Source of the DNA: Sinorhizobium psoraleae
GTDB lineage: Bacteria; Pseudomonadota; Alphaproteobacteria; Rhizobiales; Rhizobiaceae
Direction of reading: 5' to 3'
Assembly: GCF_013283645.1 (NCBI RefSeq)
Contig: NZ_JABEKV010000007.1
Location: 125,593 to 189,592 of the forward strand
Length of the DNA stretch: 64,000 nt
Shown in pieces: positions 1 to 37,494 of this stretch. The translations under genes and the position numbers were made by a program. The notes beneath the pieces were generated by a model, which was not told the origin of the DNA, did no database searches, and saw only the letters and a program-made list of their open reading frames with translations. Position 1 is the first letter of the stretch, and each line of letters starts with the position of its first letter.

Positions 1-521
1 AAGTTGTGGGCGACCGTTCCAGCGACCGGAATGCCGTAGCGCCGGCCTGCCTCCACATTCGATGTCGCCGACACTCCCGCAAGATAGGCGGCCTTGACGA
101 TCCGTGCCGCTTTCGACGCGATCACGGTTTGAAAACCGATCTGAATGAGGATGAGTGTTTCGAGCAACTGTCCCTCTGCGATCGGCGCGATGACCTCCAA
201 GATCGGCTCGTTGGCAAATACGGGGGTGCCCTCAGCTACCGCGAAAATCTCGCCGCTGAAGCGAAAGGACCTTAGCCAATCCAGGAACTCCGTCCTAAAT
301 CTGCCAAGCGAAGCGAGATGGGCGATATCATCCTCGCGGAAGTGCAACTCCTCGATGTCATCCAGGAGCTCGTCGACTCCGCAGGCGATAAGGAAATTTC
401 TCTCCGGCGGAAGCTTTCGCACGAACAGGCTGAAGACGGCGATGTCGTCCATGCTGAGCGAATGATAGGCATCCAGCATCGTCAGTTCATAGAGATCGGT
501 GAAGAGCGCGGTTGCGGTCAT
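1..521 (-). CDS. Nicotinate phosphoribosyltransferase, N-terminal part, cut by window edge
   Basis: Read on the minus strand from an ATG at 521, the protein begins with MTATALFTDLYELTM, the hallmark start of nicotinate phosphoribosyltransferase, which makes nicotinate mononucleotide for NAD salvage. The frame is open to base 1, so the C-terminus lies outside the window. Near the edge it reads TSNVEAGRRYGIPVAGTVAH, matching the family block with the active-site histidine. Between SKAARIV and KAAYLAG (plus-strand positions about 88-100) some 20-25 residues usual in the family are missing, including the phosphate-binding region around FG.RR. It lies downstream of the usp gene on the same strand, probably in one operon. 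Family assignment is firm; whether the shortened protein is active is doubtful. Confidence 0.8.
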   Translation of the reverse strand, partial: MTATALFTDLYELTMLDAYHSLSMDDIAVFSLFVRKLPPERNFLIACGVDELLDDIEELHFREDDIAHLASLGRFRTEFLDWLRSFRFSGEIFAVAEGTPVFANEPILEVIAPIAEGQLLETLILIQIGFQTVIASKAARIVKAAYLAGVSATSNVEAGRRYGIPVAGTVAHN

Positions 522-620
522 GATCTCAAGCTCGTCCTGGCGTCGCTGTCAGTTGTTCTCCGCAAAGCTGCTGTGGCCTCGTGCCGTTTCCAACTCGCCG
601 GGGGGGGCGTCGCGAGATGT

Positions 621-1141
621 TCAGCGTACCACCAGCACGGAGCAATGTGCATGCTGTATGATCTTTTGCGACGCGCTTCCGACCAGCATACCCCTCAACC
701 GCCCGAGCCCGCGGCTTCCAACGACGATCAAGTCCGCACCGATTTCCTCAGCGACCTTAAGAATCGTTTCAGCGTAGGCGCCGGGCTCGACGCGCGTCTC
801 CACGCTACCGACGCCGATGCTTCGGGCAACATCGGCAGCGTCCTCGGCAATCCGGTCACCCAAGACCGAAACCATTTCTCCGATGTCGCCTTGCGAGGCA
901 CGGAACAACTCGCCCATCGAGTTGGGAACACGTTCCAACTGTGGCAGGGTCACGGCCGATACACGGCGGACGAGGTGCTCCGGCTCAGCGAGGCGGCTCG
1001 CCTCCTCAGCCCTCAGCCCATGCAGGATGATTGAAGGATCGTAAGCCTTGCTCCGAGTGCTGTGGCTATGTTCGCCGCCATCGTCACGGCTTCTCGGGCT
1101 TTGTCGGATCCATCGGTTGCGACAAGAATGCGCTTGGTCAT
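621..1141 (-). pseudogene. Universal stress protein (UspA family), frameshifted
   Basis: The N-terminal piece from ATG 1141 reads MTKRILVATDGSDKAREAV, the classic UspA start with the nucleotide-binding Asp. The C-terminal piece ends near ADLIVVGSRGLGRLRGMLVG, the ATP-binding G-x2-G-x9-G-S/T type loop, and stops at 621. The two pieces are in different frames and join around 1015-1025, where LTILQ should continue into IILHGLRAEEASRL; one base appears to be lost there. The full length would be about 173 residues, more than a minimal single Usp domain. It is divergent from ftsH, with two FixK/FNR-type boxes between them. It is either a real pseudogene or a sequencing indel. Confidence 0.75.
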
Positions 1142-1189
1142 CGCACTTCCTCCATTCGGCAAAGTATCAGGCAACTCCGGCCGAAGGCA

Positions 1190-1203
1190 TTGACTCGCGT
1201 CAA
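1190..1203. promoter_or_regulatory. FixK/FNR-type box (anaerobox) 1
   Basis: The sequence TTGACTCGCGTCAA is a perfect TTGAC-N4-GTCAA palindrome. It fits the TTGAY-N4-RTCAA consensus bound by FixK, FnrN and related CRP/FNR regulators of rhizobia. It lies 49 bases before the usp start codon (1141) and 117 before that of ftsH (1320). Confidence 0.65.
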
Positions 1204-1246
1204 AGGCCACGGCGGCTTCCGTCACTTTGAGCCGAGCTCTCCGAGT

Positions 1247-1260
1247 TTGACACGGGTCAA
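1247..1260. promoter_or_regulatory. FixK/FNR-type box (anaerobox) 2
   Basis: The sequence TTGACACGGGTCAA is a second perfect TTGAC-N4-GTCAA palindrome in the usp-ftsH intergenic region, about 60 bases before the ftsH start codon. Two boxes, one nearer each divergent gene, make chance occurrence unlikely. Confidence 0.65.
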
Positions 1261-1319
1261 GGCGGCGGGCGGTGAGACATGAAAGGCTCGTTCGCAGCAA
1301 ACGAACCGGAAGCCGGCCT

Positions 1320-3197
1320 ATGAATACGAAATGGGTTTTCACTCTCGGCTATTTGCTCGCCGCACTCCTGTTGATCGGAATCTTTGAATTCTGGCTGGGC
1401 TATCGCGACGTCGCGCAGCTCAGTTATTCGGACGCTTTGCAGGCGGCGCAGGACGGCAGGCTCGCGTCCGTCGTCGTGACAGAGTCCTTGATCGAAGGAG
1501 AGTTCAAGCAGCCGCAGGACGGAAAGAAGTACTTCGTCGCGCATCGTGTCGATCCCTCGCTGGCCGAGGTCTTTGAGAAGGCAGGTGCAAAGGTGTCAGG
1601 CGGGACCGACAGGAATTGGGCGATGACGCTCCTTTCCTGGATCTTCCCGTTGCTGGTCTTCCTGGGACTTTGGTTCGTGCTCTTTCAGGGCGTCGCCGAG
1701 CGCGGCGGCCTCGTCAATATCGCAAAGTCAAAGGCGAAGGTCTATCTCGAGCGCCAAACGGGTGTGACCTTTGACGATGTGGCTGGCGTGGACGAGGCGA
1801 AGGCTGAGTTGCAGGAGGTGGTCGCCTTTCTGAAAGACCAGGCGAAATACAGTCGCCTCGGCGCGCATATTCCCAAAGGGATCCTCCTCGTCGGGCCGCC
1901 CGGTACGGGCAAGACGCTGATGGCGCGCGCGGTTGCAGGCGAGGCCGGCGTGCCTTTCTTCTCGATTTCCGGCTCGGAATTCGTCGAACTCTTCGTTGGC
2001 GTCGGCGCCGCCCGCGTCCGGGATCTTTTCGATCAGGCGCGACAGGCCGCTCCCTGCATCATCTTCATCGACGAACTCGACGCGCTCGGCCGCGCCCGCA
2101 GCCCCTTCGCCGGCTATGGCGGCGGCGACGAGAAGGAGCAGACGCTCAATCAATTGCTGGCCGAACTTGACGGCTTCGATCCGCGCGTCGGCATCGTCCT
2201 CCTGGCTGCCACCAATCGTCCGGAGATCCTTGATCCAGCCCTTCTGCGCGCAGGCCGCTTCGACCGCCAGGTCGTCATTGACCGCCCGGATCGAAACGGC
2301 AGGGCAGCAATCCTCAAGGTCCACATGGCAAATGTCGCGATCGCGGAGGGGGTGCATGCGGAGGAGATCGCAGACATGACGCCGGGATTCACCGGCGCCG
2401 ATCTTGCCAACCTGGTGAACGAAGCCGCGATCGTCGCAACGCGCCGTGGTGCCGAGCGGGTGGCGATCGAGGACTTCAACAACGCGGTCGAGCGCATCGT
2501 CGCCGGTTCGGAACGCAAGAGCCGCCTGCTGAAGCCCGACGAACGCGAACGGGTAGCCTATCACGAAATGGGTCACGCGTTGGTCGCCTCGAAACTCTCG
2601 AAGACCGATCCGGTGCAGAAGGTGTCGATCATTCCCCGCTCAATCGGGGCGCTTGGCTACACGTTGCAGCGCCCCACCGATGATCGCTTCCTCATCACGT
2701 CGAGTGAACTCAAGGAACGCATGACAGCACTGCTCGCCGGTCGGGCGGCTGAAGAGCTTATTTATGGTGAAGTCTCGACCGGTGCGGCGGACGATCTTGC
2801 CAAGGCCACCGATGTGGCGCGGCAAAGCGTCGTACGCTTCGGCATGAGCCCGCAGGTTGGCCAAGCTGTCCTCGAAGAGCAAAGGCTGCAATGGCTCGGC
2901 GATGGTCCAGCTGCGCCACGGCAGAAGGATTATTCGGAAACGACCGCGCGCGAAATCGATCTTGCGGTGCGCATGATGATCGACGACGCCTACCAAGGCG
3001 CCAAGGCGATACTGCAGGGGTGCATGCGCGAGCTCAAGGCAGGAGCAGAACTGCTGCTCGAGCGCGAGACGATCACTCCACAGGACTTTCCCCCGTTACT
3101 CCGGGTGAGCGACAGGACGGCCACGGGCGGCGAAACTGTGCCTCGCGCCCGGACGGCTGGATCGAAAGCCGGCGAGCGAATGCTCGATCCCCGTTGA
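1320..3197 (+). CDS. ftsH: ATP-dependent zinc metalloprotease FtsH
   Basis: A 625-residue membrane AAA+ protease that degrades misfolded or regulatory membrane and cytosolic proteins. Two transmembrane segments lie at about residues 5-25 and 101-123, around a small periplasmic domain. Then come Walker A GPPGTGKT (about 192-199), Walker B with [11 protein letters not shown] (about 247-257), the second region of homology ([18 protein letters not shown]) and the M41 zinc site HEMGH (about 415-419), with a third-ligand Asp near 491. All catalytic residues are present. I chose ATG 1320; a GTG at 1272 is in frame but adds non-family sequence. The protein is slightly short and divergent, so it is probably an accessory plasmid paralogue of the chromosomal enzyme. 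It likely responds to low oxygen through the two boxes upstream. Confidence 0.93.
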
Positions 3198-3207
3198 CGC
3201 ACATCAA
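3194..3207. promoter_or_regulatory. FixK/FNR-type box 3
   Basis: TTGACGCACATCAA matches TTGAY-N4-RTCAA exactly. It overlaps the ftsH stop codon and lies about 130 bases before the DUF2267 gene, so it could drive that gene. Confidence 0.55.
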
Positions 3208-3334
3208 TGCGGCGCGGCGGCATTCGTTGCATCCTGACCCTTGTCGCTCCGAAAATCGCAGGGGCATATGATCCGAGCCATTGTTTGGACCGGCCCGATG
3301 ACAGCACACCCATCCTGGGGCAAAGGAGGAACTC

Positions 3335-3775
3335 ATGCCAAGCGGACATCCGAGCTTCGACCATACGACTCAGGAAGGCAATATGTGGCTGAAGGCAGTG
3401 GCTGAACGCCTGCATTTCGAAGGACGGCGACACGCTTACAGCGCGCTCAGGGCTACGCTTCACGCGTTGCGCGACAGGCTGGCCCCAGGGGATGCAGTCC
3501 ATTTCGGCGCGCAGTTCCCGATGGTCATTCGTGGGCTCTATTTCGAAGGCTGGCGGCTGGCGGGAAAGCCGACAGACGAGCACTCCATTGACGAATTTTG
3601 AGAGCACGTAGCCCGGGAGCTTCCTCCTAAGTTCGGGATGGATGCCAAAACCGTCGCGACGGGCGTTTTCGACGTGATCTTCAAGGAACTTGACCCCGGC
3701 GCGGTTGCAAAGGTGATCGATCAATTGCCAGTACCCGTGAGGAGCCTGTGGCCGCAAGTCGCACGTCGCGATTAG
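3335..3775 (+). pseudogene. DUF2267 protein with in-frame stop
   Basis: The reading frame from ATG 3335 contains the DUF2267 signature of a helical stress-associated protein, including ALRATLHALRDRLAPGDAVH and LPMVIRGLYFEGW-like text. A TGA at 3599-3601 follows DEF. The same frame then continues without further stops through VARELPPKFGMD and VIDQLPVPVRSLWP to TAG at 3773-3775. The full product would be 146 residues, the normal DUF2267 size. Removing one stop restores the whole gene. The function of the family is unknown; it often sits among stress and low-oxygen genes, as here. Confidence 0.7.
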
Positions 3776-3874
3776 GGTGCGATTTTCAGGCAGCATGTCG
3801 CACTGGCTCAATCGGGTAATTGGCGCCGCATTTTTTCACCTGCTGCCAGCATTATCTACCGGCGGAGCGGAACA

Positions 3875-4266
3875 ATGTTGACAGTCTTAAACCTTTCCAA
3901 GGTGCAGTTCATCGCCCTGCTTGCCAAAGCCGCTCGCATGGAGCGTGACGCGTTGCTTGGCAACGTCCCCGAGGAGGATTTTGCTGAGCCAAAGCCGTCG
4001 CGCGGCGACCATAACGTATTGGCGAGCCTTGGCATGGAGGATATTCCCGTTGCTACGTCGCAACGCGATTTAAAACCGCGATCAATCGGCTTCCGGGGGC
4101 GGCGCTCTACGAGCTCTACGCGCTGATGCGCGTCGGGCAGGGGAGCCTCTCGGCGAAGACCTTCGAGCACGGCCTGTCGGAAGCTGAATCGCTCGACATC
4201 GCCGAATTGGTCGCAATGATCGTGGAAAATCCGGATCTACATGATCAGCTCGTCAAGGCCCTCTAG
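3875..4266 (+). pseudogene. DUF3775-like small protein, frameshifted
   Basis: The first frame from ATG 3875 gives MLTVLNLSKVQFIALLAKAA up to about 4050. The second half, LPGAALYELYALMRVGQGS through LVAMIVENPDLHDQLVKAL, is in another frame ending at TAG 4264-4266. Joined by a one-base shift near 4060, the product is about 130 residues and resembles DUF3775, a small alphaproteobacterial family of unknown function. The assignment rests on overall pattern, not on a catalytic motif. Confidence 0.55.
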
Positions 4267-4343
4267 GAATGCCTCGAAAGCTGAGGATTTGAGGTCCGAC
4301 GAGCCGGAGCCGTGGGACGCGGCCGCTGAAGCGGGAGGAAGCC

Positions 4344-4557
4344 ATGGAACACTCGGAGTTTGGTTCAGCAAAAGTGCCCCGGGGTTTGCGATTAGACCCT
4401 GCGGCAAACAAACGAATCCAAACCGCCGACAAGCGCTAACGCGCTTCGCTGCGCAAGGCGGCAAGGGCGCGCCGGACCAAGGTTCGTATTCGGTGTCGAT
4501 GACGTCATCAACGAGATCGAGGTCGGATCGACGCTCAGATTTGAGCCGCACCAATGA
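4344..4557 (+). pseudogene. Small hypothetical ORF, probably frameshifted
   Basis: A strong ribosome site (GGGAGGAA) precedes ATG 4344. The first frame gives 31 residues and ends in TAA at 4437. A plausible continuation in another frame reads RAGPRFVFGVDDVINEIEV and ends at TGA 4555. No family is recognised. The ribosome site and the acidic continuation suggest a broken real gene, but this is weak. Confidence 0.3.
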
Positions 4558-4669
4558 TGCCTTCGAGGCCTGCTACCGTTTTGAAGATCTCTCATAGGGG
4601 AGGTGGCAACTGCTGCGGAGTTGCGAGCTACGCAGCACCCCCCCCCGCTTAAATTGGAGGATGTCGGAG

Positions 4670-4966
4670 ATGGAACCCCATGTCGTCGACATTGACCCGA
4701 AGCAGATCGTGCCGGCTGCCGGCGGCTGGGTCTTGACTGTGACCGTCGAGGATGAAATCGGGCTTCGGCCGGCCAGGGGAGGCATGCTCGAGATCGATTT
4801 GGCGTCATTTTACGATCAGTTCGTTCGTACCGGGCGAGGGACCGCCAGCGTGGCCGCCGAGGTTGACGGGCCGGAAGGGGAGGTGCGGCTCTCGCGCCTG
4901 CTCGATGCCGTCAAACGTCGCCACCGCGGTTCTGGAAAAGAGTACACCCTGTCCATTGCCCCGTAA
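4670..4966 (+). CDS. Hypothetical protein, 98 residues
   Basis: I do not recognise a family. GGAGG at 4656-4660 is well placed for ATG 4670 and too close for ATG 4661, so 4670 is preferred. The protein is acidic, mixed alpha/beta in appearance, with no signal peptide or membrane segment. Codon use looks like its neighbours. It stands alone between the DUF genes and the methyltransferase. Confidence 0.55.
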   Translation: MEPHVVDIDPKQIVPAAGGWVLTVTVEDEIGLRPARGGMLEIDLASFYDQFVRTGRGTASVAAEVDGPEGEVRLSRLLDAVKRRHRGSGKEYTLSIAP

Positions 4967-5311
4967 ATTGCGCACGATCCCAGAGTCTGTCGGCATCACA
5001 TTGAAGCATGCCTCGCATTACTGATAATTCGCGGGCGTCACCAATGAACGGCGGCTTCGTCCCACCTAGCGGACGCGCAGGGGCCTTCTCCCGGACGTCT
5101 GTTCACCACCCGCTACCGCCGTCGAGAGCAGCGCAGCTAAAGGTCGTCTTTGGCGCCAATTTCAGCCCTTGGCATCGGGCGGCCATGTATCCGGTTTCGT
5201 GTTGCACCTCCTAGCAGCGGACGGTCGGCAGTCGTGAAGGGTTTCGGGCGCCGGCAGGCGTACGAAAGTCACCGAGGAAGGAACCCGCGGGCGGCAGGCG
5301 ATGCGATAGCT

Positions 5312-5827
5312 ATGGGAATTTCGGACTTCCGCCTGTTTCGTCGATGGCGCGACCGTCGTCAGGAAGCGCCGTCGCTGAGGATCTTCTCGTTCGTTCTGTT
5401 CATGCACTGGATCGTTGCCGGGGTTGACCGTGGCCGTTTCCATTGGAGCGACAACGTGCCCGATTGGCTTCGGGGCGTTTGCCTGTTCACGGTCGCGGCC
5501 GGCTACGCCCTTGCACTATGGGCTATGCGTGTGAACCGATTTTTCTCCTCAGTCATTCGCATCCAGGCCGACCGCGGCCAGCACGTCGTCAGCACGGGAC
5601 CTTATGCCTTCATCCGCCACCCTGGCTACACCGCTGGATTTCTGATCATAGCGGCAAGCGGACCCGCGCTCGGATCGTGGCTTGCGGCTGCGCTTGTTGT
5701 GCTCTTTAGCCTGCCGTTTCTGCTCTACCGCACCATCACGGAGGACCGAATTCTTCGCGCGGAGCTTGCGGGCTACTCGGATTACGCCACGCGGGTCCGA
5801 TGGCGGCTTCTGCCGGGTATTTGGTGA
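5312..5827 (+). CDS. Isoprenylcysteine carboxyl methyltransferase-like membrane protein
   Basis: The C-terminal two thirds match the ICMT/PEMT-type membrane methyltransferase fold: hydrophobic helices (RGVCLFTVAAGYALALWAM), the motif IRHPGYTAGFL, then a helix and EDRILRAELAGYSDYATRVR with a basic end. These integral membrane proteins methylate lipids or small thiols with S-adenosylmethionine. From ATG 5312 the product is 171 residues; family members often have 200-220 with extra N-terminal helices. The frame is open further upstream to 5150 but that part looks non-coding, so the N-terminus may be truncated. The substrate cannot be told. Confidence 0.65.
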   Translation: MGISDFRLFRRWRDRRQEAPSLRIFSFVLFMHWIVAGVDRGRFHWSDNVPDWLRGVCLFTVAAGYALALWAMRVNRFFSSVIRIQADRGQHVVSTGPYAFIRHPGYTAGFLIIAASGPALGSWLAAALVVLFSLPFLLYRTITEDRILRAELAGYSDYATRVRWRLLPGIW

Positions 5828-5829
5828 GA

Positions 5830-6138
5830 CCAAGCCTCCTTAGGAAGCGGAAGCGTGCTTCGAAGGTCGTCGCGGCCTGCCAATGCAGCTAATTTAGCCG
5901 TGGTCGCTTAGGCTCTCGTTTTGGTTCGGATTTCTGAATTGGGGCTTTTGAGACCTTGGTCTAAAGCTCAAAAATGGCGGGAAGTTGCCGTTCGTGGCCA
6001 ATTCCGAAAGCGATGGCTCTTGGCAGTTGATGACAGATTAATAGGTCCTGCCCCCTAGCCAAGGGAGAACTTATATCATTCGCCGAGAGCACCCGGAATC
6101 TCCGGTCTTGACCCTTGCACGACGCCGTCCACGGTGCC
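5830..6138. other. Intergenic, no gene seen
   Basis: About 310 bases between the methyltransferase and the IS110 relic. I see no convincing coding frame, hairpin or regulatory motif. Confidence 0.5.
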
Positions 6139-6360
6139 GGCCGAGAGGTCACAGGCAACCTGACCCTGATCGAGCTGGGCTGGCTGTGGCTGCGCCACCA
6201 ACCCTGCACTCGACACTGACGCGCTGGGTTTAAGGAGCGCATCGCCCGCAATGGCGGCCGGTTCAACAAGGCGATGATCGTCGCGCTCGCCCGAAAGCTG
6301 CTAGTCGCACTCTCGAAGTAAGTGACCGCCGGCGTCGTCATCGAGGGCGCGGACATGGAA
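6139..6360 (+). mobile_element. IS110-family transposase C-terminal relic
   Basis: Pieces in two frames give LIELGWLWLRHQP and then RIARNGGRFNKAMIVALARK, LLVAL and VTAGVVIEGADM, which is the typical C-terminal end of an IS110/IS1111 transposase. There are stops and at least one frameshift, and the N-terminal half is absent. It is a dead insertion-sequence tail that marks past rearrangement left of the MarC gene. Confidence 0.65.
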
Positions 6361-6543
6361 AATGTCTGGCCCCTATAATCGTCAGTCACGAGTTGCAAAC
6401 CTCCCCTTGGAAGATCGTGATCGTCCATTCTACCGCCACCGTCATCCTTGAGTAAAGCGACGGTCATGGACCAATTGGGACCTAACAGTACGTGCTCAAC
6501 TCCGGAAAGTTACCGGGCTCCTGCTGCGGCTCGACATTCCGGC

Positions 6544-7344
6544 TTATATGCCAACGCCCGGCTCGCCGGCATGTCTTCCGTCCGGACCATAATCTCTAAA
6601 TCGGCGCTCCGCGAAGACGCCGATCATTGCCAGGCCGTGTAGGATCACTTGCAGGCCGAGAGCGACCTGAGTGACGCCAAGAACAACGGCAAATACCTGA
6701 AGCGCCGTTCCAACAAATCTCAGGATGGTTTCGGCAAACAGCATCGCCGTCCAGTCCACTGCCAGGATGAGCAGCACAATGCCGCCCACCGTCAACTCGG
6801 CGTCGTATCGATTCCCGGCCAGCGTTGCGAACACGATCACCGCTGCAATCCCATAGGGCGTGACTATCGTCGGGAACGCCAGCGGCGTGAAGGCCAGTTT
6901 GAGATCGGGCAGTTGGCTGACCGGTTTCGGGGGATTTGCGGTGCCTGCAGATTGCTGCAGCACTGTTTGCAGAGCCACAAGAAACAGAATCACGCCGCCG
7001 GTCAGGGCGAGCACCGGCAATGAGATCTCGAAATTCTCGAGCATGCTGCGTCCGAGCAACCCGGCAAGAGCAAGCGCGGCTGCGGAAAACAGCATCGCTC
7101 GTCTCGCCAAAGTACGACGAAAGACTGGATCGGAATCCTGCGTCATGCCCACGAACGGAACCAGAATCTTGATCGGGCCAAGCATCAGGAACAGCATGAG
7201 AAAAATTTTGCGTGCACCAAATTCCGGTCCCTCGGGCACCGTTTTAGATGGCACTTGCGCGAATGCAGGCATCGCGAGGAGCACCGAGAGCGCCGCCATC
7301 AGGCAAAGTGACGTCAGGCGGTATCGGCCGAACCGTCGCGGCAC
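6544..7344 (-). CDS. MarC family integral membrane protein
   Basis: A 266-residue protein with a cleavable-looking N-terminus (LCLMAALSVLLAMPAFAQ) followed by about six hydrophobic segments. It has the MarC/UPF0056 layout, including ILVPFVGMT, LALTGGVILFLVALQ and the conserved TPLAFPTIVTPYGIAAVI. MarC proteins were once linked to multiple antibiotic resistance, but their real transport role is unresolved. The added signal-like N-terminus is longer than in many homologues. It stands alone on the minus strand between the IS110 relic and the glucan phosphorylase. Confidence 0.85.
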   Translation of the reverse strand: MPRRFGRYRLTSLCLMAALSVLLAMPAFAQVPSKTVPEGPEFGARKIFLMLFLMLGPIKILVPFVGMTQDSDPVFRRTLARRAMLFSAAALALAGLLGRSMLENFEISLPVLALTGGVILFLVALQTVLQQSAGTANPPKPVSQLPDLKLAFTPLAFPTIVTPYGIAAVIVFATLAGNRYDAELTVGGIVLLILAVDWTAMLFAETILRFVGTALQVFAVVLGVTQVALGLQVILHGLAMIGVFAERRFRDYGPDGRHAGEPGVGI

Positions 7345-7478
7345 GAAAACTTTGGATCACCGTTGCAGTCGCAGGTGGCAATCGCCATTGCTTTCACCAG
7401 AATCCATGCATCCACTGTCCGGGTAGACGGACGCCGTCACAAGCGGAACAGCCAGTAGAGAGCACTCGGTCGTGATCG

Positions 7479-10400
7479 CTAGCCAATCGCGATACGAACG
7501 TCGTGCGTCAGCCCGTCGTCACTGAGTGGTATGATCGCGTCAGTAAAGACGGTTCCGTCCAGCGTAACGGAGCGCACTCCCCGGCCGGCTTTCTCTGAGT
7601 TATCGAAACGGATGCGGTATGTCGCCGATCCATGCTTGTAGCTCAACTCGTAACCTGACCAACTTGCCGGAACACAGGGCTCAAACCGGAGGGTCTGGCC
7701 TTGTCGGCGCAGTCCAAGGATGGCTTCCAGCGCCACTCGATACAACCAGGCGGCTGATCCGGTGTACCAGGTCCAGCCACCACGTCCGGTGTGCGGTGGT
7801 GCGCCGTAAACGTCGGCGCTGACGACATAGGGCTCGACCATATAGTGCTCGGCTTCATGCTTTGTCGAAGCGTGATTGATCGGATTGATCAGGCTCCAAA
7901 GCTCCAGGGCGCGATCGCCGTCTCCTTGCAGTGCCGACGCGAGCACGAGCCACGCGGCCGCATGGGTGTACTGTCCGCCATTTTCTCGTATGCCGGGAAC
8001 ATAGCCCTTGATGTAGCCCGGCTGCAGGGACCCCCTGTCGAACGGCGGGTCGAACAACTGGATCAGCTTGTCTTGTCGGCGCACGAGCCTTTGATAGGCG
8101 GCGCTCATCGCCTTCGACGCACGCTCCTCGTCGGCCGAGCCAGAGATGACGGCCCAAGCCTGCGGAATGGCATCGATCTGGCACTCGTCGTTGGCGGATG
8201 AACCGAGAGGCGTGCCGTCGTCAAAATAGGCGCGGCGATACCAGGCGCCATCCCAAGCGTGTGCTTCCAGCGCGGCGCGCAGTTCCTCGGCCCGTTCGCG
8301 GCACCATCGGGCACGGCCTTCGTCGCCGTGCGAAGACGCGGTCGTCGCGAATGACTTCAGTACCGTTAGGAAGAACCAGCCGTTCCAGACGCTTTCGCCT
8401 ATGCCGCCGGCACCGACCTTGTTCATGCCATCGTTCCAGTCGCCTGTTCCCATGAGCGGCAAGCCGTGTAGGCCGAGCCGGAACCCGTGCTCCAATGCCC
8501 GGACACAGTGCTCGTAGACGGTACCGGCCTCTTCGCTGAGTACAGGAACGCCGAAATCCTCTTCCTGATCCTCCTTCAATACTGGTGATGCGATGAAGGG
8601 CACCCGCTCCTCCAGCAGGTGGGCATCGCCAGTAATCGAAACATAGTGGTGAACCACGAAAGGCAGAAAATACAGGTCATCGGTCATGCGCGTGCGCACC
8701 CCGACGCCGGACGGAGGATGCCACCAGTGTTGAACGTCACCCTCCGTGAATTGGCGGCCGGCTGCCCGCAGAATCTGCGAACGAGTCTCATTCGGCGCAC
8801 TGTGGACCAACGCCATCACATCCTGGAGCTGATCCCTGAAGCCGAACGCGCCTCCGGACTGATAGAACGCAGAGCGCGCCCAGACGCGACAAGCGAGCAC
8901 CTGGTACAACAGCCAACGATTCATCATCACGTTTAAGCCGACGTCCGGCGTTGAAACCTGAACTGCATTCAGAATGTCGTCCCAATCACGGGATATTGCG
9001 GCGAAGCTTTCACGAGCACGGCCGGCTTCGGCATGCTCGTGAACAAGCCTACGCACCTCCTCGAGCCCACCAGCCTGCCCAAGGACAAAGATAACCTCCT
9101 GGCTCTCGCCGGGTGCCAATGAAATACTTACCATCAGGGCACCGCAGGGATCTTGCAGAGGACCGAAAGTCTCCGCCAGGCTGGTCCGCTCCAAGGCCGC
9201 CGGCCGAAAAACAGAACCGTATTTGCCCAGAAACGCCGTGCGATCGGACGTGGCTGAACTCGCAGCGGGACTGGCGGCCACAAATGCCAGTCTTCCAGCG
9301 AAGTCGTTGGCCCACGGGTTCCACGCCACGATGGCTCCCGAAGGGGCATCGCGTTCGCAAACGAGCTGCATCGCAGCGTCTTCACGGTGTGTCCCCAGAA
9401 CCCACTCGACGAAATAGGTCGCCGACAGATGGCGGCTCTTGGAGTCATTGTTGGTCAATCCGAGACGAACGATCTTGATCTCATCGTTCGGCGGAACATG
9501 CACGGTTAACGTCTGATGGAGCTTTCGACTGTCGCTTTCATAACGGCTGTAGCCCTGGCCATGCCGAACGGTCACGAACGCTCGCTCTCCGAGTGGCAAG
9601 GGCGTCGGAGACCAGAACCCTCCGGTCTCTTCGTCCCGCAGGTAAACGACCTCGCCAGGCGTGTCTGAAACCGGGTCGTTCGACCAAGGCGTCAGCCGGT
9701 TCATCTGGCTGTTGCCGGCCCAGGAATAGCCAAGCCCGGCTTCGGTCGCCAGGCAGCCAAAACTCGGGCTTGCGATGACGTTGCTCCACGGAGCCGGGGG
9801 CAGTGCCGGCGGTTGCAAATTGACCCCGTCCACCGCAACGACGTATTCGCGCCCGTCAGGGGTGAAGCCTCCGAATCCGTTATAAAACAGCAGATCCTTC
9901 ACCGGGGCGGACGCAGGTTCCTTGAGTACATCGCTTGATCGAGGCGCCCTCGCCTGGGAAGAAAGCGATGCAACCGGGTCTTGCCGATCAAACTGCTTGG
10001 CAAGTGAGCCCGATCTGCTCAACAAGACGACGCGCGCGGCGGCGGTGATCGTTTCCACTTGATCGTCCGAGACGGTAGCTGCCGACAAGACAAAGATTCC
10101 TCCTGCCTTGCCCAGCATCTCGGCTTCCGAGCCGGCTTGCAGTTTCTTGATCAAGCGCTTGGCGCTTGTGGGGCCCCGCTCATCGAACAAGACAAGGTCG
10201 AATTGCAGACCTCGGCGGCGGCTGAAGTCGTGCGCCATCGTGATCTCACGAACAAGTGCCTTGGCGCCGTCGCTATCGATGCGAACCAACACGATCGGAA
10301 GATCGCCGGAAATTCCGTGAGCCCATAGAGCCGCTCGGTCCAATCGGTTTTTGTTGAATGGACCCGCCTGCCGCATGGTCGGATTGGCAAACACGATACA

Positions 10401-11384
10401 GCCGGCGAGCCGGTTGAATAGGGCCACCTCGTCGGCAGTCAGCTTCAAGTCCCGATGTTCGGTTTGATGTTTCCCCAGCGCGGCGGCGAATGCCTCATCG
10501 ACCGCGTCGATGCTCGCGTATTGCTTGGCGATTGCCCGGACTGCCAATTCGTCGTCGGCGGCTCCCGTCACGAAAGCCACGCGCGCCGTAGCGCCAGGCT
10601 CCAGATGGACCGTCCGTCGCAGACAGAAGACCGGATCGAGAACGGGGCCCGTCGTTCTGGAAAGTGTTGTGCCCGCGTCAAATGCTGCGGGATTTGACGG
10701 CGTGCGGCCGCGTCCAAGGAATCTCAATCGATCGGTCTCATACTCGAGTACGTCGCCGACCTGTTCGCTAGACGACGAAACATGAACTGCCCAGACTGGT
10801 CTTTCTTCTGCATGACGCGGCCTGCGACGCGCAAACAGCGCGCCCGTCACATGATCGTAGTCTGTCTCCACGAAGAGCTTGGCAAACGCCGGGTGCGCCC
10901 GGTCCGCGCGGCGATCGTTCAGGCAGACCTCGGAATAGCTGGTGAATTCGAGGCTTCGTTCCGTCTTGCCATGGTTCACGACCGTAAGCACCCGCACCTC
11001 CGCGTCGGCATTCGGCGGGACGCAGACTTTCCCGAAAATATCAATATCTTCGGCGCGACAGCGGAACTCGGCCCTGTCGCCATGGAAAGCGTGCTCGTAG
11101 ATGTTCGAAGGTCGGAAGACTGGTTGCTTCCCGATGGACCACAGCGTGTTGTCTGCCAGGTCTCGAACGTAGCAAAACTGCCCCCAGCAATCTCGCGTCA
11201 GGTCCTCACGCCACCGAGTAACGTCAAGGTCCCGCCACCTGCCGCAACCGGCGCCTGCTGCAGTGACCATAAGGCTGTAGCGACCGTTGGAGAGCAATGC
11301 GATCGCATGCCCGGAGTCCATCACCTCGGGAGCGCTACTGTGTCTCGCCTTAGACACGTCCTGGCCGTCGACCGATTTTGCCAT
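7479..11384 (-). CDS. GH94 glucan phosphorylase (NdvB C-terminal-like)
   Basis: A 1301-residue protein resembling the C-terminal phosphorylase half of cyclic beta-1,2-glucan synthase NdvB/ChvB, without the membrane glycosyltransferase half. It holds two beta-sandwich regions (GRYSLMVTAAGAGCGRW near the start; GFGGFTPDGREYVV near 510) and a C-terminal alpha/alpha barrel with the GH94 motif GTGDWNDGMN at about residue 980, whose Asp is the catalytic acid. Such enzymes cleave beta-linked glucan with phosphate to give glucose 1-phosphate. I chose ATG 11384, 10 bases after AGGA; a TTG precedes it directly. It lies upstream of the histidine phosphatase and aldolase on the same island, fitting a glucan-breakdown role. 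The linkage specificity is inferred, probably beta-1,2. Confidence 0.82.
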   Translation of the reverse strand: MAKSVDGQDVSKARHSSAPEVMDSGHAIALLSNGRYSLMVTAAGAGCGRWRDLDVTRWREDLTRDCWGQFCYVRDLADNTLWSIGKQPVFRPSNIYEHAFHGDRAEFRCRAEDIDIFGKVCVPPNADAEVRVLTVVNHGKTERSLEFTSYSEVCLNDRRADRAHPAFAKLFVETDYDHVTGALFARRRPRHAEERPVWAVHVSSSSEQVGDVLEYETDRLRFLGRGRTPSNPAAFDAGTTLSRTTGPVLDPVFCLRRTVHLEPGATARVAFVTGAADDELAVRAIAKQYASIDAVDEAFAAALGKHQTEHRDLKLTADEVALFNRLAGCIVFANPTMRQAGPFNKNRLDRAALWAHGISGDLPIVLVRIDSDGAKALVREITMAHDFSRRRGLQFDLVLFDERGPTSAKRLIKKLQAGSEAEMLGKAGGIFVLSAATVSDDQVETITAAARVVLLSRSGSLAKQFDRQDPVASLSSQARAPRSSDVLKEPASAPVKDLLFYNGFGGFTPDGREYVVAVDGVNLQPPALPPAPWSNVIASPSFGCLATEAGLGYSWAGNSQMNRLTPWSNDPVSDTPGEVVYLRDEETGGFWSPTPLPLGERAFVTVRHGQGYSRYESDSRKLHQTLTVHVPPNDEIKIVRLGLTNNDSKSRHLSATYFVEWVLGTHREDAAMQLVCERDAPSGAIVAWNPWANDFAGRLAFVAASPAASSATSDRTAFLGKYGSVFRPAALERTSLAETFGPLQDPCGALMVSISLAPGESQEVIFVLGQAGGLEEVRRLVHEHAEAGRARESFAAISRDWDDILNAVQVSTPDVGLNVMMNRWLLYQVLACRVWARSAFYQSGGAFGFRDQLQDVMALVHSAPNETRSQILRAAGRQFTEGDVQHWWHPPSGVGVRTRMTDDLYFLPFVVHHYVSITGDAHLLEERVPFIASPVLKEDQEEDFGVPVLSEEAGTVYEHCVRALEHGFRLGLHGLPLMGTGDWNDGMNKVGAGGIGESVWNGWFFLTVLKSFATTASSHGDEGRARWCRERAEELRAALEAHAWDGAWYRRAYFDDGTPLGSSANDECQIDAIPQAWAVISGSADEERASKAMSAAYQRLVRRQDKLIQLFDPPFDRGSLQPGYIKGYVPGIRENGGQYTHAAAWLVLASALQGDGDRALELWSLINPINHASTKHEAEHYMVEPYVVSADVYGAPPHTGRGGWTWYTGSAAWLYRVALEAILGLRRQGQTLRFEPCVPASWSGYELSYKHGSATYRIRFDNSEKAGRGVRSVTLDGTVFTDAIIPLSDDGLTHDVRIAIG

Positions 11385-11476
11385 CAACGTTTTCCTACCT
11401 TAACGACAAGTCGGATCGCCGAGTCAGCCTGCGCAGAGGCGATGTCACCGGTCTGCGCACGGCGCTCCGCGGGATG

Positions 11477-12046
11477 CTAGCCAGCGAGGTGTCCATTCCA
11501 GATCCTCACTGCGGGTATCTCGTGGTAGTAGGCGAGAACGCTCAACGTGCCCGTATTCAGGAGAAAATGCTGTCCTGCACGCGCTGGCAGTCCGATCCAC
11601 CTTGCCGCGAGCACGCGCAGCACGTGCCCATGTGCGAAGAGGGCAACATCGCCGTCAGCAGCTCGCGCCCGGGCCACGACCTGATCCACACGAGCACCAA
11701 CTTGCGACGGTGTCTCGCCGCCCGGGCATCCATCCCGGAAAATCAACCAGTCCGCTCTTTTTGCCTCGATTTGCTGAGGCGTCAGGCCCTCGTATTCGCC
11801 GTAATTCCATTCCATCAAGCCCGAATCGACGATGGCCCTCTCGCCGAGGCCCGCCAAGTCACAAGTCTCCCGGGCACGCTGCAGCGGGCTTACGAGAACG
11901 AGCGCAAACGTCTGCCTGGCCAGCACTGGCCGCATCCTTTCCGCCTGTCGTCGTCCTTTATCGGTCAAGGCGACGTCTGTTGTGCCGGTGTGCTGTCCGC
12001 TCAGGCTCCACTCAGTCTCCCCGTGCCTGATCACGAATACGTTCAC
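11477..12046 (-). CDS. Histidine phosphatase family protein (phosphoglycerate mutase-like)
   Basis: A 189-residue protein starting VNVFVIRHGETEW: the RHGE motif at residues 7-10 carries the phosphorylated histidine. The second histidine is in LFAHGHVLRVLAARW. The GTG start at 12046 is favoured because AGGAGG stands about seven bases upstream; an earlier ATG at 12100 adds unrelated residues. Members remove or transfer phosphate from sugar phosphates or small metabolites. In this island a sugar phosphatase or phosphoglycerate mutase-like role in central carbon flow is plausible, but the substrate is unknown. Confidence 0.85.
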   Translation of the reverse strand: MNVFVIRHGETEWSLSGQHTGTTDVALTDKGRRQAERMRPVLARQTFALVLVSPLQRARETCDLAGLGERAIVDSGLMEWNYGEYEGLTPQQIEAKRADWLIFRDGCPGGETPSQVGARVDQVVARARAADGDVALFAHGHVLRVLAARWIGLPARAGQHFLLNTGTLSVLAYYHEIPAVRIWNGHLAG

Positions 12047-12150
12047 GTCCAGCCCTCCTGGCTCAGACGTTGCAGGGTACCGACCAGTCGGCACCGGCAT
12101 GCGCGGCCAGCGGAATCACTCGTCGCACGACTGGCCGTGATACTGGTGCA

Positions 12151-13173
12151 CTACCCGCCGGCTGATACCGCCTCCATCTGATCGGTGTACGTCCCGAGAC
12201 TGGCCGCCCCGTTGCAGCGAGCCCGGTGGTAAAGAGCCTGCTGACCCAGCTTCAGGTTCTCGTCGCGCCCATGCCACGCCGTCAACGCCGGATCCTGGAG
12301 TGCGCGCCCATAGGAAAAACTAATCTTCCAGGGCTTGGGGCCGGGCAGTCGGTTGATCGCGTTGAGGTGAGTGGTGGCAGTCCGGTCGTCCTGGCCGCCC
12401 GACAGGAACACGATGCCGGGAACCGCCGCGGGGACGTGCCGACGCAAACAGCGGAGTGTGGCGACTGCAACCTCCTGCACCTTAGCCGGACGAGAGCACG
12501 CCTCGCCCGCGATCACCATGTTGGGCTTGAGCAGCATGTGCTCCAGCACGACACGCTGCTCGAAGAGAGCCTGGAACACGGCGTGAAGGACCACGCCAGT
12601 GACCTCCTCGCAGCGCTCGATTGTGTGCGATCCGTCCATCAACACTTCCGGTTCGACGATCGGCACGAGATGCTGCTCTTGACAGAGCGCAGCGTATCGG
12701 CCGAGCGCGTGTGCATTGGCACTGACGCATGCGGTGCTCGGCAGGCCGTCCGCAATGCGGATAACTGCACGCCACTTCGCGAAGCATGCCCCCATACCGC
12801 GGTACTCGGAAAGGCGGTCCCGGAGTCCGTCGAGCCCTTCGGTGATCTTCTCATCGGAGGAGCCGGCGAGAGGCTTCGCGCCGGTATCGACCTTGATGCC
12901 AGGAAGGATTTCCTGGTCGGAAAGGAGCTGAGCGAGCGGTACTCCACCCGAGCTCTTCTGGCGGATAGTCTCGTCGTACATGATGACTCCGCTGATGAAC
13001 TCTGCCGCGCCCACGAAGAGCATTTCACGGTAGGTGCGTCGGCTTTGCTCGGTGGATTGGATTCCAAGCGCGTCGAACCGCTTGGTCAAAGTGGGGACGG
13101 TTTCATCCGCCGCCAGAATGCCCTTCCCCTTTGCGACTAGCGCCGTCGCGATGCTCCCCAGATCGTGGTTCAT
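12151..13173 (-). CDS. Class I fructose-bisphosphate aldolase
   Basis: A 340-residue Schiff-base aldolase that splits fructose 1,6-bisphosphate into two triose phosphates. It shows the class I start KGKGILAADETVPTLTKRF, the lysine block EHMLLKPNMVIAG (Schiff-base Lys near residue 217), FLSGGQDD and the C-terminal PWKISFSYGRALQ. Length is normal for the bacterial/eukaryotic class I type. AGAGGA precedes ATG 13173. A near-consensus FNR-type box lies about 50 bases upstream. It reads in the same direction as the histidine phosphatase, 104 bases ahead of it, so they may be co-transcribed. Confidence 0.92.
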   Translation of the reverse strand: MNHDLGSIATALVAKGKGILAADETVPTLTKRFDALGIQSTEQSRRTYREMLFVGAAEFISGVIMYDETIRQKSSGGVPLAQLLSDQEILPGIKVDTGAKPLAGSSDEKITEGLDGLRDRLSEYRGMGACFAKWRAVIRIADGLPSTACVSANAHALGRYAALCQEQHLVPIVEPEVLMDGSHTIERCEEVTGVVLHAVFQALFEQRVVLEHMLLKPNMVIAGEACSRPAKVQEVAVATLRCLRRHVPAAVPGIVFLSGGQDDRTATTHLNAINRLPGPKPWKISFSYGRALQDPALTAWHGRDENLKLGQQALYHRARCNGAASLGTYTDQMEAVSAGG

Positions 13174-13211
13174 CGTACATCCTCTGGTCTTTCAAATAAT
13201 ATCAGTCGAGA

Positions 13212-13373
13212 TCAGAACTGGCTATGATTTCGATCAAGAGGACGCGACTTTCGCGTGGCCAGGTCAAACGCATGCCGCGCGAGCATCAGTTCTTCGTCAG
13301 TCGGGAAATGAGCAAGACGATGCGGCTTTTCGTTCGACATCGGCAGCTCTGCCGCTGAATTGGCGGGTGGATG
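13212..13373 (-). pseudogene. Acetate kinase C-terminal relic
   Basis: The minus strand encodes PPANSAAELPMSNEK then HFPTDEELMLARHAFDLA, which matches the last part of acetate kinase (the family ends with a ...PTDEE..IARHT... block). Upstream sequence is too scrambled to follow, and no start or ATP-binding motif remains. It points away from phosphoketolase, which lies just to the right. This suggests an xfp-ackA pair, as found together in many bacteria, has lost its ackA here. Confidence 0.55.
13224..13237. promoter_or_regulatory. Near-consensus FNR-type box 4
   Basis: ATGATTTCGATCAA matches TTGAT-N4-ATCAA at nine of ten positions. It lies 51 bases upstream of the aldolase start. It also falls within the final codons of the acetate kinase relic, so it may be fortuitous. 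Confidence 0.35.
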
Positions 13374-24193: not shown

Positions 24194-24862
24194 CTACGAC
24201 TCGTGCTTTGGAAAATGATCCACAACGCCAACGACGCCGCGGACGCTTTCGGCTGCAACGCGCGCCGCCTTCCGGCACTCCTCCGTCGAGACATTGCCCC
24301 ACAAATGTACCACGCCGCTAGCTACCGTCACCGTTACATCCTGCCCATCGAGACCGGTGTTCTCGCTTAGGCGGATCATGATGCTGCGACGGATGGCTTC
24401 GTCACCGGGCGCCGTTCCATCTGGCTTGGCGGAGATGATCGCCTCGAGAAGATCCGCGCGGCTCACAATGCCGACCACGGCACCAGCTCTCGTCACCGGA
24501 AGGCGCTTGATGCCGTGCTCCTCCATCAGGTAAGCGACGCGCGCCAGGGACGTGTCCTCGTCGACAGAGACCGGATTACGGCTCATCACATCGGCGACTT
24601 TCCACGCGTTGCTCTTGATGTATAGGTTGGCCCTCTCCTCCGGAGATAAGGACTCGTCGACGAGTGTCGCGATGGCTCGATGCCCTAACTCGGTCCTTCG
24701 CAACAGGTCACCCTCGGTGATGAGGCCAACGAGTTGTCCTTCATCGTCGATGACCGGGATACCACTGATATGATTGGCGATCATCACTTCTGCGGCCTGC
24801 TTGACGCTGTTGTCCGGCGAGACCTTGATAACTCTTATCTTCATCACGTCTCTGACCAGCAT
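24194..24862 (-). CDS. CBS-domain pair plus BON domain protein
   Basis: A 222-residue cytoplasmic protein. Two CBS motifs occupy about residues 1-60 (MLVRDVMKIRVIKVSPDNSV, ISGIPVIDDEGQLVGLITEGDL) and 88-145 (VADVMSRNPVSVDEDTSLAR, IKRLPVTRAGAVVGIVSRAD). A BON domain covers about 155-222 (VTVTVASGVVHLWGNVSTEE). CBS pairs bind adenine nucleotides and often act as energy sensors; BON domains bind membranes or lipids. Such genes are frequent in low-oxygen and universal-stress clusters. ATG 24862 is chosen because the domain begins there; the frame is open much further upstream but without coding character. Confidence 0.85.
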   Translation of the reverse strand: MLVRDVMKIRVIKVSPDNSVKQAAEVMIANHISGIPVIDDEGQLVGLITEGDLLRRTELGHRAIATLVDESLSPEERANLYIKSNAWKVADVMSRNPVSVDEDTSLARVAYLMEEHGIKRLPVTRAGAVVGIVSRADLLEAIISAKPDGTAPGDEAIRRSIMIRLSENTGLDGQDVTVTVASGVVHLWGNVSTEECRKAARVAAESVRGVVGVVDHFPKHES

Positions 24863-25116
24863 CGCGCGCCAACTCCCAAGTAGAATAGGGCCACAGCCTT
24901 GCCTTCCACAAAATAGCTCTCCGGCAATGCTTAGACAACTCAGGCACTCGGCGGGTTGCGTAAGCTTCTTTTGGGCCAGCCCTCGCAGGTGGCTCCGTGG
25001 CAGCGAGGTTGAATTTCCGCTGGCCAAGAGCCGTCGCCGCGCCGTCGCGGAACGCAAGCCTGGAACAGGCCCTGACATCGCTGACTGGGGTCTGATCGAA
25101 GGGTCGGCTAAAATAG

Positions 25117-26083
<967 letters not shown>

Positions 26084-34940: not shown

Positions 34941-35051
34941 TCGCCGTTAAACCTTTGTTAACCCTAAACTTCTGGACGGGTCTGGAGAATCGTGTTCTAT
35001 CTCTGGCGGGTAATGGTCGGTAAACCGGCAGTAGACCGCCAAGAGGAACAG

Positions 35052-36275
35052 ATGGCGATAGCGAACCGAGTGGAATCAGTTGTTGGCACTAAGGAAGATG
35101 CGGGCAGCAAAATCACGCGCCACGCAGGGCTCCTGTCAGCGCAGTTGCAGCAGCTCAGAACTCGCATGTATCCTCCGAAGTCGGAGAAAACACTTCGTCC
35201 GTTTTTGACGAACGAAGTGTCGAAGCTGACGTCTATACCCGATTCCACGCTGAAGCTCATGTCCATCGAAGGGCGTGGACCGGTCCCGAGCAGGCTCGAG
35301 AATAATCATCGCGTCTACACGCTGGCTCAGATTAATGAGTTGCGCGAGCTCTTCGCTAAGCAGAAGCCGGCGGAAGCCTTGCGGTTTTTCCCCCGCCGAC
35401 GTGCCGGCGAGCATCTCCAGGTGCTTGCCATTGCCAATTTCAAGGGTGGCAGCGCAAAGACAACGACCTGCGTCCACCTCTCTCACTATCTGGCCCTTCA
35501 GGGCTATCGCGTTCTCGCACTCGACTTGGACCCACAGGCATCCCTGTCAGCCATGTTCGGCGCCCAGCCAGAGGTAGACGTTGGTTCGAATGAAACCATC
35601 TACGCTGCCTTGCGCTACGACGAAGCCGAGCGGCGCCCGATCCGCGACATCATTCGCAAGACCTACTTCGAGGGGATCGACCTAATCCCCGGCAACCTCG
35701 AAGTGATGGAGTATGAGCATGAAACTCCCCGCGTCTTGGCGAACAAGTCGAGCTCCGGCGCGATCTTCTTCGAGCGGTTGAAGCTCGCCCTTTCGGAAGT
35801 CGAGGCTGACTATGACGTCGTAATCCTGGACACGCCGCCGTCGCTCGGTTTTCTGACGCTGAGCGCAATATATGCGGCGACCAGCATGATCATAACAGTG
35901 CATCCGGCCATGCTTGACGTGGCTTCGATGAGCCAGTTCCTTCTCATGATGGGCGATCTGATTAGCGTTCTGAATGAGAGCGGAGCTCAACTGGATCAGG
36001 ACTTCATCCGATATCTCGTGACGCGGCATGATCCCAATGATGCGCCACAGTCGCAGGTCGTTGCTATGCTCCGGCACATGTTCGGGACCGATGTCCTATT
36101 GCCCACTGCCATCGAAAGCACAGCCGTCGAAGCAGCTGGCCTAGCGAAACGTTCGATATACGAGATGGAAATGGGTCAGATCGGCCGCGATACCCACAAG
36201 CGTGCCCGTGAAGCCGTTGACGCGGTCAATGAAGCGATCATCCGCCTTATCAACGACAGCTGGGGGCGGACATGA
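35052..36275 (+). CDS. repA: Plasmid partitioning protein RepA (ParA ATPase)
   Basis: A 407-residue protein. An N-terminal helix-turn-helix region (residues about 20-110: HAGLLSAQLQQLRTRMYPP, KLTSIPDSTLKLMSIEGRG) is followed by the ParA ATPase with deviant Walker A ANFKGGSAKTT (about 127-137), LDLDPQASLSAMFG and VVILDTPPSLGFLTL. RepA with RepB segregates the plasmid and represses the operon. ATG 35052 is preceded by AAGAGGAACAG, better than the alternative at 34992. The stop overlaps repB by four bases. Confidence 0.96.
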   Translation: MAIANRVESVVGTKEDAGSKITRHAGLLSAQLQQLRTRMYPPKSEKTLRPFLTNEVSKLTSIPDSTLKLMSIEGRGPVPSRLENNHRVYTLAQINELRELFAKQKPAEALRFFPRRRAGEHLQVLAIANFKGGSAKTTTCVHLSHYLALQGYRVLALDLDPQASLSAMFGAQPEVDVGSNETIYAALRYDEAERRPIRDIIRKTYFEGIDLIPGNLEVMEYEHETPRVLANKSSSGAIFFERLKLALSEVEADYDVVILDTPPSLGFLTLSAIYAATSMIITVHPAMLDVASMSQFLLMMGDLISVLNESGAQLDQDFIRYLVTRHDPNDAPQSQVVAMLRHMFGTDVLLPTAIESTAVEAAGLAKRSIYEMEMGQIGRDTHKRAREAVDAVNEAIIRLINDSWGRT

Positions 36276-37291: not shown

Positions 37292-37315
37292 GAACCCTGA
37301 CAGCTGTCAGGGTTC
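37292..37315. repeat. parS centromere site 1
   Basis: A perfect 24-base palindrome with core CCCTGACAGCTGTCAGGG, lying directly between repB and repC. Its position and form match the parS sites bound by RepB in repABC plasmids. The same core recurs at 38728-38751. Confidence 0.8.
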
Positions 37316-37344
37316 AGAGCAATTGAGGAAAGGAAGCGTAGCAA

Positions 37345-37397: not shown

Positions 37398-37494
37398 AAC
37401 TAGAGAATCGCATTTCCCCGAATCCCAGTCAAGAGTCTATGGCGCCGTTTTTTTGGTGAGCGGATTTCTTTTGCCTCTTAGAAGGTGAAGAAAA

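Follow-up and report, generated by a model that had tools for sequence, protein, structure and literature searches.

Which protein reads the FixK/FNR-type boxes in a 64-kb stretch of Sinorhizobium psoraleae DNA, and what do these boxes control? The stretch, here called the window, is G000:C65:125593-189592, so that a window position equals the position on contig C65 minus 125,592. A sequence-only reading had placed three exact TTGAY-N4-RTCAA sites (1190-1203, 1247-1260 and 3194-3207) and a 9/10 match (13224-13237) before a universal stress protein gene (usp), ftsH, a DUF2267 gene and a class I aldolase gene, and had taken them as signs of a low-oxygen regulon on this replicon, run by an external regulator. 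We found all four sites and their neighbours as described, with usp and the DUF2267 gene additionally broken. Here, we argue that the boxes probably belong to a 57-kb plasmid island (C65:71.6-128.8 kb) that would act as a self-contained low-oxygen stress regulon.

Conserved boxes at the start of the window

The three exact boxes lie among the following features, given in window positions:

621..1141, minus strand: universal stress protein gene (usp), frameshifted in this genome and open in 6/6 relatives
1161..1166, minus strand: -10-like hexamer TACTTT, starting 24 nt beyond the usp box (class II spacing)
1190..1203: FixK-type box TTGACTCGCGTCAA, assigned to usp; exact in 7/7 loci
1247..1260: FixK-type box TTGACACGGGTCAA, assigned to ftsH; exact in 7/7 loci
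1320..3197, plus strand: FtsH-type AAA+ metalloprotease gene (ftsH), intact, 93% to S. fredii CCBAU 45436
3194..3207: FixK-type box TTGACGCACATCAA, assigned to DUF2267; overlaps the ftsH stop codon; exact in 6/7 loci
3335..3775, plus strand: DUF2267 gene, with an in-frame TGA at 3599-3601 here; 146 amino acids and open in S. fredii CCBAU 45436

Three exact boxes in the window compare with 0.20 expected, and none of 100 dinucleotide shuffles gave three. Sites with at most one mismatch form a class without enrichment in the window (8 including the three exact ones vs 4.8 expected; at least 8 in 11/100 shuffles).

Conservation was examined at seven loci (our own, G006, G008, G011, G027, G028 and S. 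fredii CCBAU 45436), which count as about four lineages because the box sequences of G006, G008, G011 and CCBAU 45436 are identical. The usp/ftsH pair of boxes is exact at every locus, with box starts 55-58 bp apart, while the sequence between them is far more diverged. The usp frame behind it measures 173 amino acids in five of the six relatives and 190 in the sixth, G028. The DUF2267 gene is open in all four of the six relatives where its frame was found; its box is degenerate in G027, and is kept in G028 although no DUF2267 frame was found behind it there. Because of this persistence and the overlap with the ftsH stop codon, the DUF2267 box is the weakest of the three.

The boxes mark a 57-kb island on a plasmid contig

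C65 is a 205,829-bp contig in a 7.43-Mb genome. Genes resembling repABC at window 34,992-38,709, named from their translations, point to a plasmid, and we therefore read C65 as one. Genome-wide, we counted 68 exact boxes in 7.43 Mb vs 3 for the same pattern read backwards, a control that is not dinucleotide-matched; window shuffles scaled to the genome give about 23 boxes. On C65, 21 exact boxes compare with 0.55-0.98 expected from Markov simulations. Nineteen of the 21 fall within 57 kb, from C65:71,605 to 128,786, and the three exact boxes of the window are thus the right edge of this island.

The placement of the 19 island boxes is far from random. Seventeen contain at most 4 coding bases vs 12% of random places (p = 4e-14). 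Eighteen have a start codon at a distance of -15 to 250 nt, as do 24% of random places. For the two boxes counted as coding (71605 and 103973), comparison with S. fredii proteins suggests that both precede the true starts. Gene calls on C65 and on plasmid pSF45436d of S. fredii CCBAU 45436 came from a simple caller in these placement tests, with the broken usp added by hand to the C65 list.

A Pfam scan, covering 41 of the 56 called island genes, assigned the boxed genes to three intact universal stress proteins (Usp) besides the broken usp, Hsp20, GroEL, a phosphoenolpyruvate (PEP) synthase-type enzyme, glucokinase, ornithine carbamoyltransferase, a beta-CASP metallo-hydrolase, a trypsin/PDZ protease, a heavy-metal P-type ATPase, LTXXQ and pentapeptide proteins, a CBS-BON protein (with PfkB behind it) and FtsH; a boxed hemerythrin-like gene is without a Pfam match. 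A fourth intact Usp gene comes after Hsp20. Several divergent gene pairs carry two boxes, one per direction (C65 82327/82362, 117804/117858 and 126782/126839).

At its right end (C65:119,825-130,000, i.e. window 1-4,300 and leftwards), the island shows gene decay around the intact ftsH, affecting NAPRTase, usp, DUF2267, DUF3775 and PRPP synthetase.

A putative oxygen-sensing cascade on the same contig

The sole HTH_Crp_2 match on C65 lies at C65:80,056-80,805, 45 kb left of the window; its best relative in the PDB is FixK2 (E 1e-26), and it is 52.8% identical over 199 amino acids to FixK9b of the trio that we used as reference (R. johnstonii 3841 pRL9, gene names from PMC7888657). This FixK-type activator has one Cys in the whole protein and lacks the N-terminal cysteine cluster of FnrN, which a protein encoded on contig C34 carries. 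Beside it, C65:78,162-80,039 encodes a hybrid FixL-type kinase of 625 amino acids with a C-terminal receiver (62.7% over 622 amino acids to hFixL9). Its PAS domain aligns to the FixL haem domains 1d06/1dp6 (E 3e-46) and is a putative haem domain, in which the His of HD-x-Y and the Arg of IIGIGR are kept; we take this His to be the haem ligand, and the role of the Arg is likewise presumed. A kinase without the haem His was considered and dropped, since the presumed ligand is present. On the other side of the activator, at C65:about 80,947-81,687, lies an FxkR-type response regulator of the OmpR type (Response_reg and Trans_reg_C; 68.7% over 233 amino acids to FxkR9). FixJ is a NarL-type protein, and the FixJ partner that a canonical FixLJ-FixK system has beside fixK is absent here, the adjoining regulator being OmpR-type (Trans_reg_C).

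Between the activator and the response regulator genes, at C65:80,893-80,908, we found an exact K-box, GTTACA-N4-GTTACA, the only exact one in the genome. The K-box is reported as the FxkR site (PMC4999443, PMC7888657). In parts and layout, the predicted controller thus has the sequence features of an hFixL-FxkR-FixK cascade. The candidate regulator is external to the window, as the sequence-only reading had it, but it lies on the same contig with its module and K-box, and an off-replicon regulator as the sole candidate was therefore dropped.

We propose the following scheme. The sequence itself shows the three regulator genes, the K-box and the boxes, with their clustering, location between genes, -10 spacing and conservation, whereas we infer that haem is bound, that oxygen exerts control, that phosphate is passed on, and that DNA is bound and promoters are activated. 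Falling oxygen would free the hybrid FixL-type haem-PAS kinase from oxygen inhibition; the freed kinase would phosphorylate the FxkR-type response regulator, which would bind the K-box and switch on the neighbouring FixK-type activator. The activator, in turn, would bind TTGAY-N4-RTCAA boxes centred near -41.5 and recruit sigma-70 polymerase to about 15-20 promoters, serving universal stress proteins, Hsp20, GroEL, FtsH, a DegP-like protease, PEP synthase, CBS-BON with PfkB, and others.

A phylogenetic tree groups the island activator with the island proteins of pSF45436d and of S. meliloti pSymA, apart from the two other FixK proteins of this genome. It is weakly resolved (4/12 inner branches firm, FixK9a/9b unplaced), so that no class name rests on it.

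A second copy of the island, at G000:C6:24199-53095, is about 90% identical to pSmeSM11a, and contig C6 has 6 boxes. This copy is without the stretch for the response regulator, the Crp/Fnr gene and most of the kinase (C6 38541-38713 spans L064 16952-22270). The C65 circuit may serve both islands.

Promoter spacing of the boxes

Are the boxes placed where a bound activator would meet the polymerase? When island boxes are aligned towards their genes, a TA...T hexamer appears about 23 nt beyond the box. An FNR-type site centred at -41.5 (class II) puts the -10 element at about this distance; we saw the offset first and tested it afterwards, and it equals the prior expectation. For the anaeroboxes of R. 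leguminosarum 3841, transcription starts are tabulated 32-34 nt beyond the box (PMC7888657). In the test, both arms of every box were counted without gene annotation, and a TANNNT had to start at 22-24 nt. This was the case at 8/114 arm positions in the C65 island vs 0.3% elsewhere (p = 2.5e-9), at 13/198 on pSF45436d vs 0.4% (p = 8e-12), at 3/36 on C6, and at 38/600 in stretches of 12 other genomes vs 0.4% (p = 6e-33). The non-island boxes of this genome also show the spacing (7/72 positions, a subset of 12 boxes), and therefore other FixK/FnrN promoters probably exist in it.

The module in other Sinorhizobium genomes

Is this arrangement peculiar to one strain? Among 33 Sinorhizobium genomes, treated as unrelated in the statistics, 15 have a match to the regulator with an E value no higher than 1e-40. 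An exact K-box occurs in 14 genomes, all of them among these 15 (Fisher p = 2e-8), and 15 of the 18 K-boxes sit 86-137 bp ahead of a regulator match. Genomes with the regulator hold 57.8 boxes on average, the 18 without it 36.2 (p = 2e-5). We sampled stretches around the regulator from 12 of the 14 other carriers (G006 and G022 left out; 4 of the 12 stretches one-sided). These 397 kb contain 100 boxes, where the genome-average density would give 3.4, and 10/12 genomes are individually enriched.

A second FixK-type paralogue occurs in some genomes, a few kb from the ftsH locus in L086 (G027:C28) and L088 (G028:C49), and on pSF45436d at L066:14541-15281.

Expression of boxed genes in relatives

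In S. fredii CCBAU 45436, 103 of the 203 genes of pSF45436d are reported to be raised by humic material, and the authors, who describe the special role of this plasmid as unclear, suggest adaptation to environmental stress (PMC8552645). Their selected stress table has 10 induced genes on pSF45436d, and an exact box lies no more than 250 nt upstream of 8 of them, vs 34/188 called genes (p = 2e-5). Among the eight is AB395_RS32375, orthologous to the window usp; the two without a box are the usp genes RS32670 and RS32755. That paper makes no mention of FixK (0 occurrences). This result shows co-regulation of the boxed genes, not oxygen control. In S. meliloti, FixJ is reported to activate the stress genes SMa1147 and SMa1158 (PMC13327599).

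The aldolase site and the rest of the window

Beyond the three exact boxes, one more site deserves attention:

12151..13173, minus strand: class I fructose-bisphosphate aldolase gene
13196..13201, minus strand: -10-like hexamer TATTAT, starting 23 nt beyond the aldolase box
13224..13237: imperfect FixK-type box ATGATTTCGATCAA, a 9/10 match before the aldolase gene

In four aligned relatives the aldolase box is exact in G025, G011 and G027 and a 9/10 match in G010, and all five genomes have a TANNNT on its aldolase side, starting 23 nt past the box. Because of the exact box in 3/4 relatives and the -10 element at activating distance, we regard this site as credible though the count-based test is not significant. 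The aldolase is then probably an outlying target of the island regulon, the window otherwise holding only the right edge of the island. A box matrix trained on sites outside the window gave 5 scores of at least 10 in it (the four sites above and 25241) vs 2.1 expected over 8 simulations, and the match at 25241 sits at the start of an ldh frame fragment. Phosphoketolase (xfp), lactate dehydrogenase (ldh) and glycogen phosphorylase (glgP), which the sequence-only reading had placed in the same microaerobic or dormancy island, have no exact box, and the matrix finds nothing convincing before them; they were dropped as box-bearing targets. Since the aldolase site is the single plausible one beyond 3.3 kb of the window, the genes for carbon storage and fermentation have no demonstrated place in the regulon. 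Of that reading, what stands is a probable low-oxygen regulon and, on this replicon, a set of enriched FixK/FNR-type boxes, many with activating spacing, before stress and energy genes.

Two observations concern genes of this region. The L-lactate dehydrogenase gene (window 25,050-26,083, named from its translation) is apparently frameshifted, with its N-terminal part and the remainder in different frames. A second CBS-BON protein (window 24,233-24,862) shares 53% identity with the boxed protein at C65:121,411, and no exact box lies ahead of its gene.

Elsewhere in the genome, G000:C23:486010-491907 contains, within 6 kb, four identical copies of the palindrome TTGACAGCTGTCAA, which is also closely repeated in G001 and G002. 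These repeats perhaps belong to another DNA-binding system.

Alternative explanations

Several points weigh against a self-contained low-oxygen regulon. The kinase PAS has Asn at the residue aligned to what we take to be Arg206 of FixL. Of the three genes adjoining exact boxes in the window, this strain has broken copies of two, usp and DUF2267, and the DUF3775, NAPRTase, PRPP synthetase and acetate-CoA ligase genes of C65 are disrupted as well (three stops in NAPRTase, an apparent internal inversion in PRPP synthetase). TANNNT at the class II distance is present for only 8 of the 19 island boxes and absent for the ftsH and DUF2267 boxes of the window, and the spacing signal is not significant for the pSymA stretch of S. 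meliloti 1021 (1/42 positions, p = 0.09). The genus statistics carry no correction for relatedness among genomes; G015 has the regulator and no exact K-box, and the sampled stretches of G024 and G025, both one-sided, show no significant clustering. What induced the S. fredii genes was humic material rather than low oxygen, and our search turned up no data on how this strain or island responds to oxygen. Finally, the genome encodes FnrN (C34) and two other FixK proteins (C1, C45), which are expected to read the same boxes.

This last point leads to the strongest alternative, in which the boxes are real and read mainly by FnrN and these two FixK proteins, the island regulator being minor or confined to a subset. 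The recognition helix contains TIETVSR in all four proteins, and the motifs of FixK and FnrN are reported as near-identical (PMC4999443). The inner base of the boxes bears on both sides of this question. Over all sites, position 6 is G in 22/38 half-sites of the C65 island, whereas it is C in 40/74 non-island half-sites (p = 9e-4); this comparison accounts for 66 of the 68 boxes, namely 19 island and 37 non-island boxes, with the 6 of C6 and the 4 identical ones of C23 excluded. Among sites with a -10 element, the difference is not significant (p = 0.09 pooled, 0.26 for C65 alone), and a distinct inner-base dialect was dropped as a firm claim. However, the roughly 30-fold clustering of boxes around the island regulator in other genomes, and the about 20 additional boxes of regulator-bearing genomes, argue for the island protein as a reader in its own right, so that we consider the alternative unlikely, if worth keeping in mind.

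Much less probable is an FNR-family protein that uses the boxes in answer to another signal, such as nitric oxide, redox state or starvation, with oxygen not being the cue. The sites of FNR, FixK and DNR overlap (PMC2908626), and the induction of pSF45436d genes by humic material would fit such a protein. Yet the adjoining kinase has a FixL-type PAS that keeps the presumed haem-ligand His and the IIGIGR Arg, and hFixL-FxkR is reported to respond to 1% oxygen in R. leguminosarum (PMC7888657). That the boxes are chance matches or functionless relics in this strain is hardly credible despite the disrupted genes, since the enrichment, placement, -10 spacing and conservation tests all speak against it and open frames remain on C65 for the regulator trio, for ftsH, groEL, hsp20, ppsA, pfkB, the CBS-BON gene and four other usp genes, as for most other genes compared. 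The boxes of a plasmid-borne low-oxygen stress regulon thus remain our preferred reading.

Comparison with known systems

Close counterparts are the S. meliloti pSymA island, around a Crp/Fnr gene that is presumably SMa1141 and where we also take SMa1147 and SMa1158 to lie, and pSF45436d of S. fredii CCBAU 45436. Both have the same module and many shared, largely collinear and boxed genes; pSF45436d holds 33 boxes and the second FixK paralogue, and the 40-kb pSymA stretch 6 boxes.

The hFixL-FxkR-FixK cascade of Rhizobium leguminosarum 3841 and R. etli consists of the same three kinds of protein, at the identities given above, and in both cases FixK boxes lie on the targets. In strain 3841, fixK9b and fxkR9 diverge around one shared K-box, as the island pair does; the 3841 gap also holds an anaerobox, for which the island gap has no counterpart (best match 4 mismatches) (PMC7888657). 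The targets reported for that cascade are fixNOQP, fixGHIS and fnrN (PMC7888657, PMC4999443), whereas here the cascade lies inside a stress and energy island with 19 boxes. The Pfam scan, which covered 41 of the 56 called island genes, found no fixNOQP.

The alphaproteobacterial FixK core regulon, best defined in Bradyrhizobiaceae, includes Hsp20, a CBS protein, phosphoketolase and an HlyD secretion protein predicted under FixK; as described there, it is driven by FixLJ, and FxkR and the K-box are not part of it (PMC2908626). The gene content of the island is similar to this predicted core regulon and also to the lxa locus of Burkholderia cenocepacia, which comprises 50 genes activated by low oxygen; they encode, among others, six universal stress proteins, one heat shock protein, and proteins of the BON, metallo-beta-lactamase and phosphofructokinase families (PMC6127331, PMC9104464). 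For lxa, the proposed FNR/FixK-type regulator, BCAM0049, lies outside the locus, whereas the island has its own on the same contig. A large contiguous cluster of universal stress protein, Hsp20, BON, metallo-beta-lactamase and PfkB genes is present in the island, in a comparison of families and not of orthologues.

The DNA-binding regulator of the DosR dormancy regulon of Mycobacterium tuberculosis is unrelated to the FixK type, and the likeness of that regulon to the island is one of analogy only. DosR controls universal stress proteins, alpha-crystallin and phosphofructokinase for hypoxic survival (PMC6127331), and it also uses haem sensor kinases.

In the literature searched, in which subscription journals were thinly covered, we found no description of a K-box/FixK-controlled stress island in Sinorhizobium. 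As far as our searches show, what appears to be new is that a plasmid-borne stress island combines a complete oxygen-type cascade of its own with 19 of the predicted boxes of that cascade.

Biological meaning

An island regulon of this kind would offer a regulatory reason for the joint rise of half of the pSF45436d genes, for which the excerpt of PMC8552645 names no regulator. It would also link the hFixL-FxkR cascade, known from nodule respiration genes, to a mobile stress and survival island, and among rhizobia it is offered as an equivalent of the hypoxia programmes lxa and DosR. More tentatively, we speculate that accessory Sinorhizobium plasmids carry a portable low-oxygen survival programme with a complete sensor-relay-activator circuit and its own promoter dialect, TTGAYGCGCRTCAA, with an inner G in place of the C of FixK/FnrN. 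A conjugating plasmid could then bring its recipient a DosR- or lxa-like regulon largely independent of the FixLJ/FnrN of the host, and the same circuit would also serve the C6 copy, which lacks these regulators.

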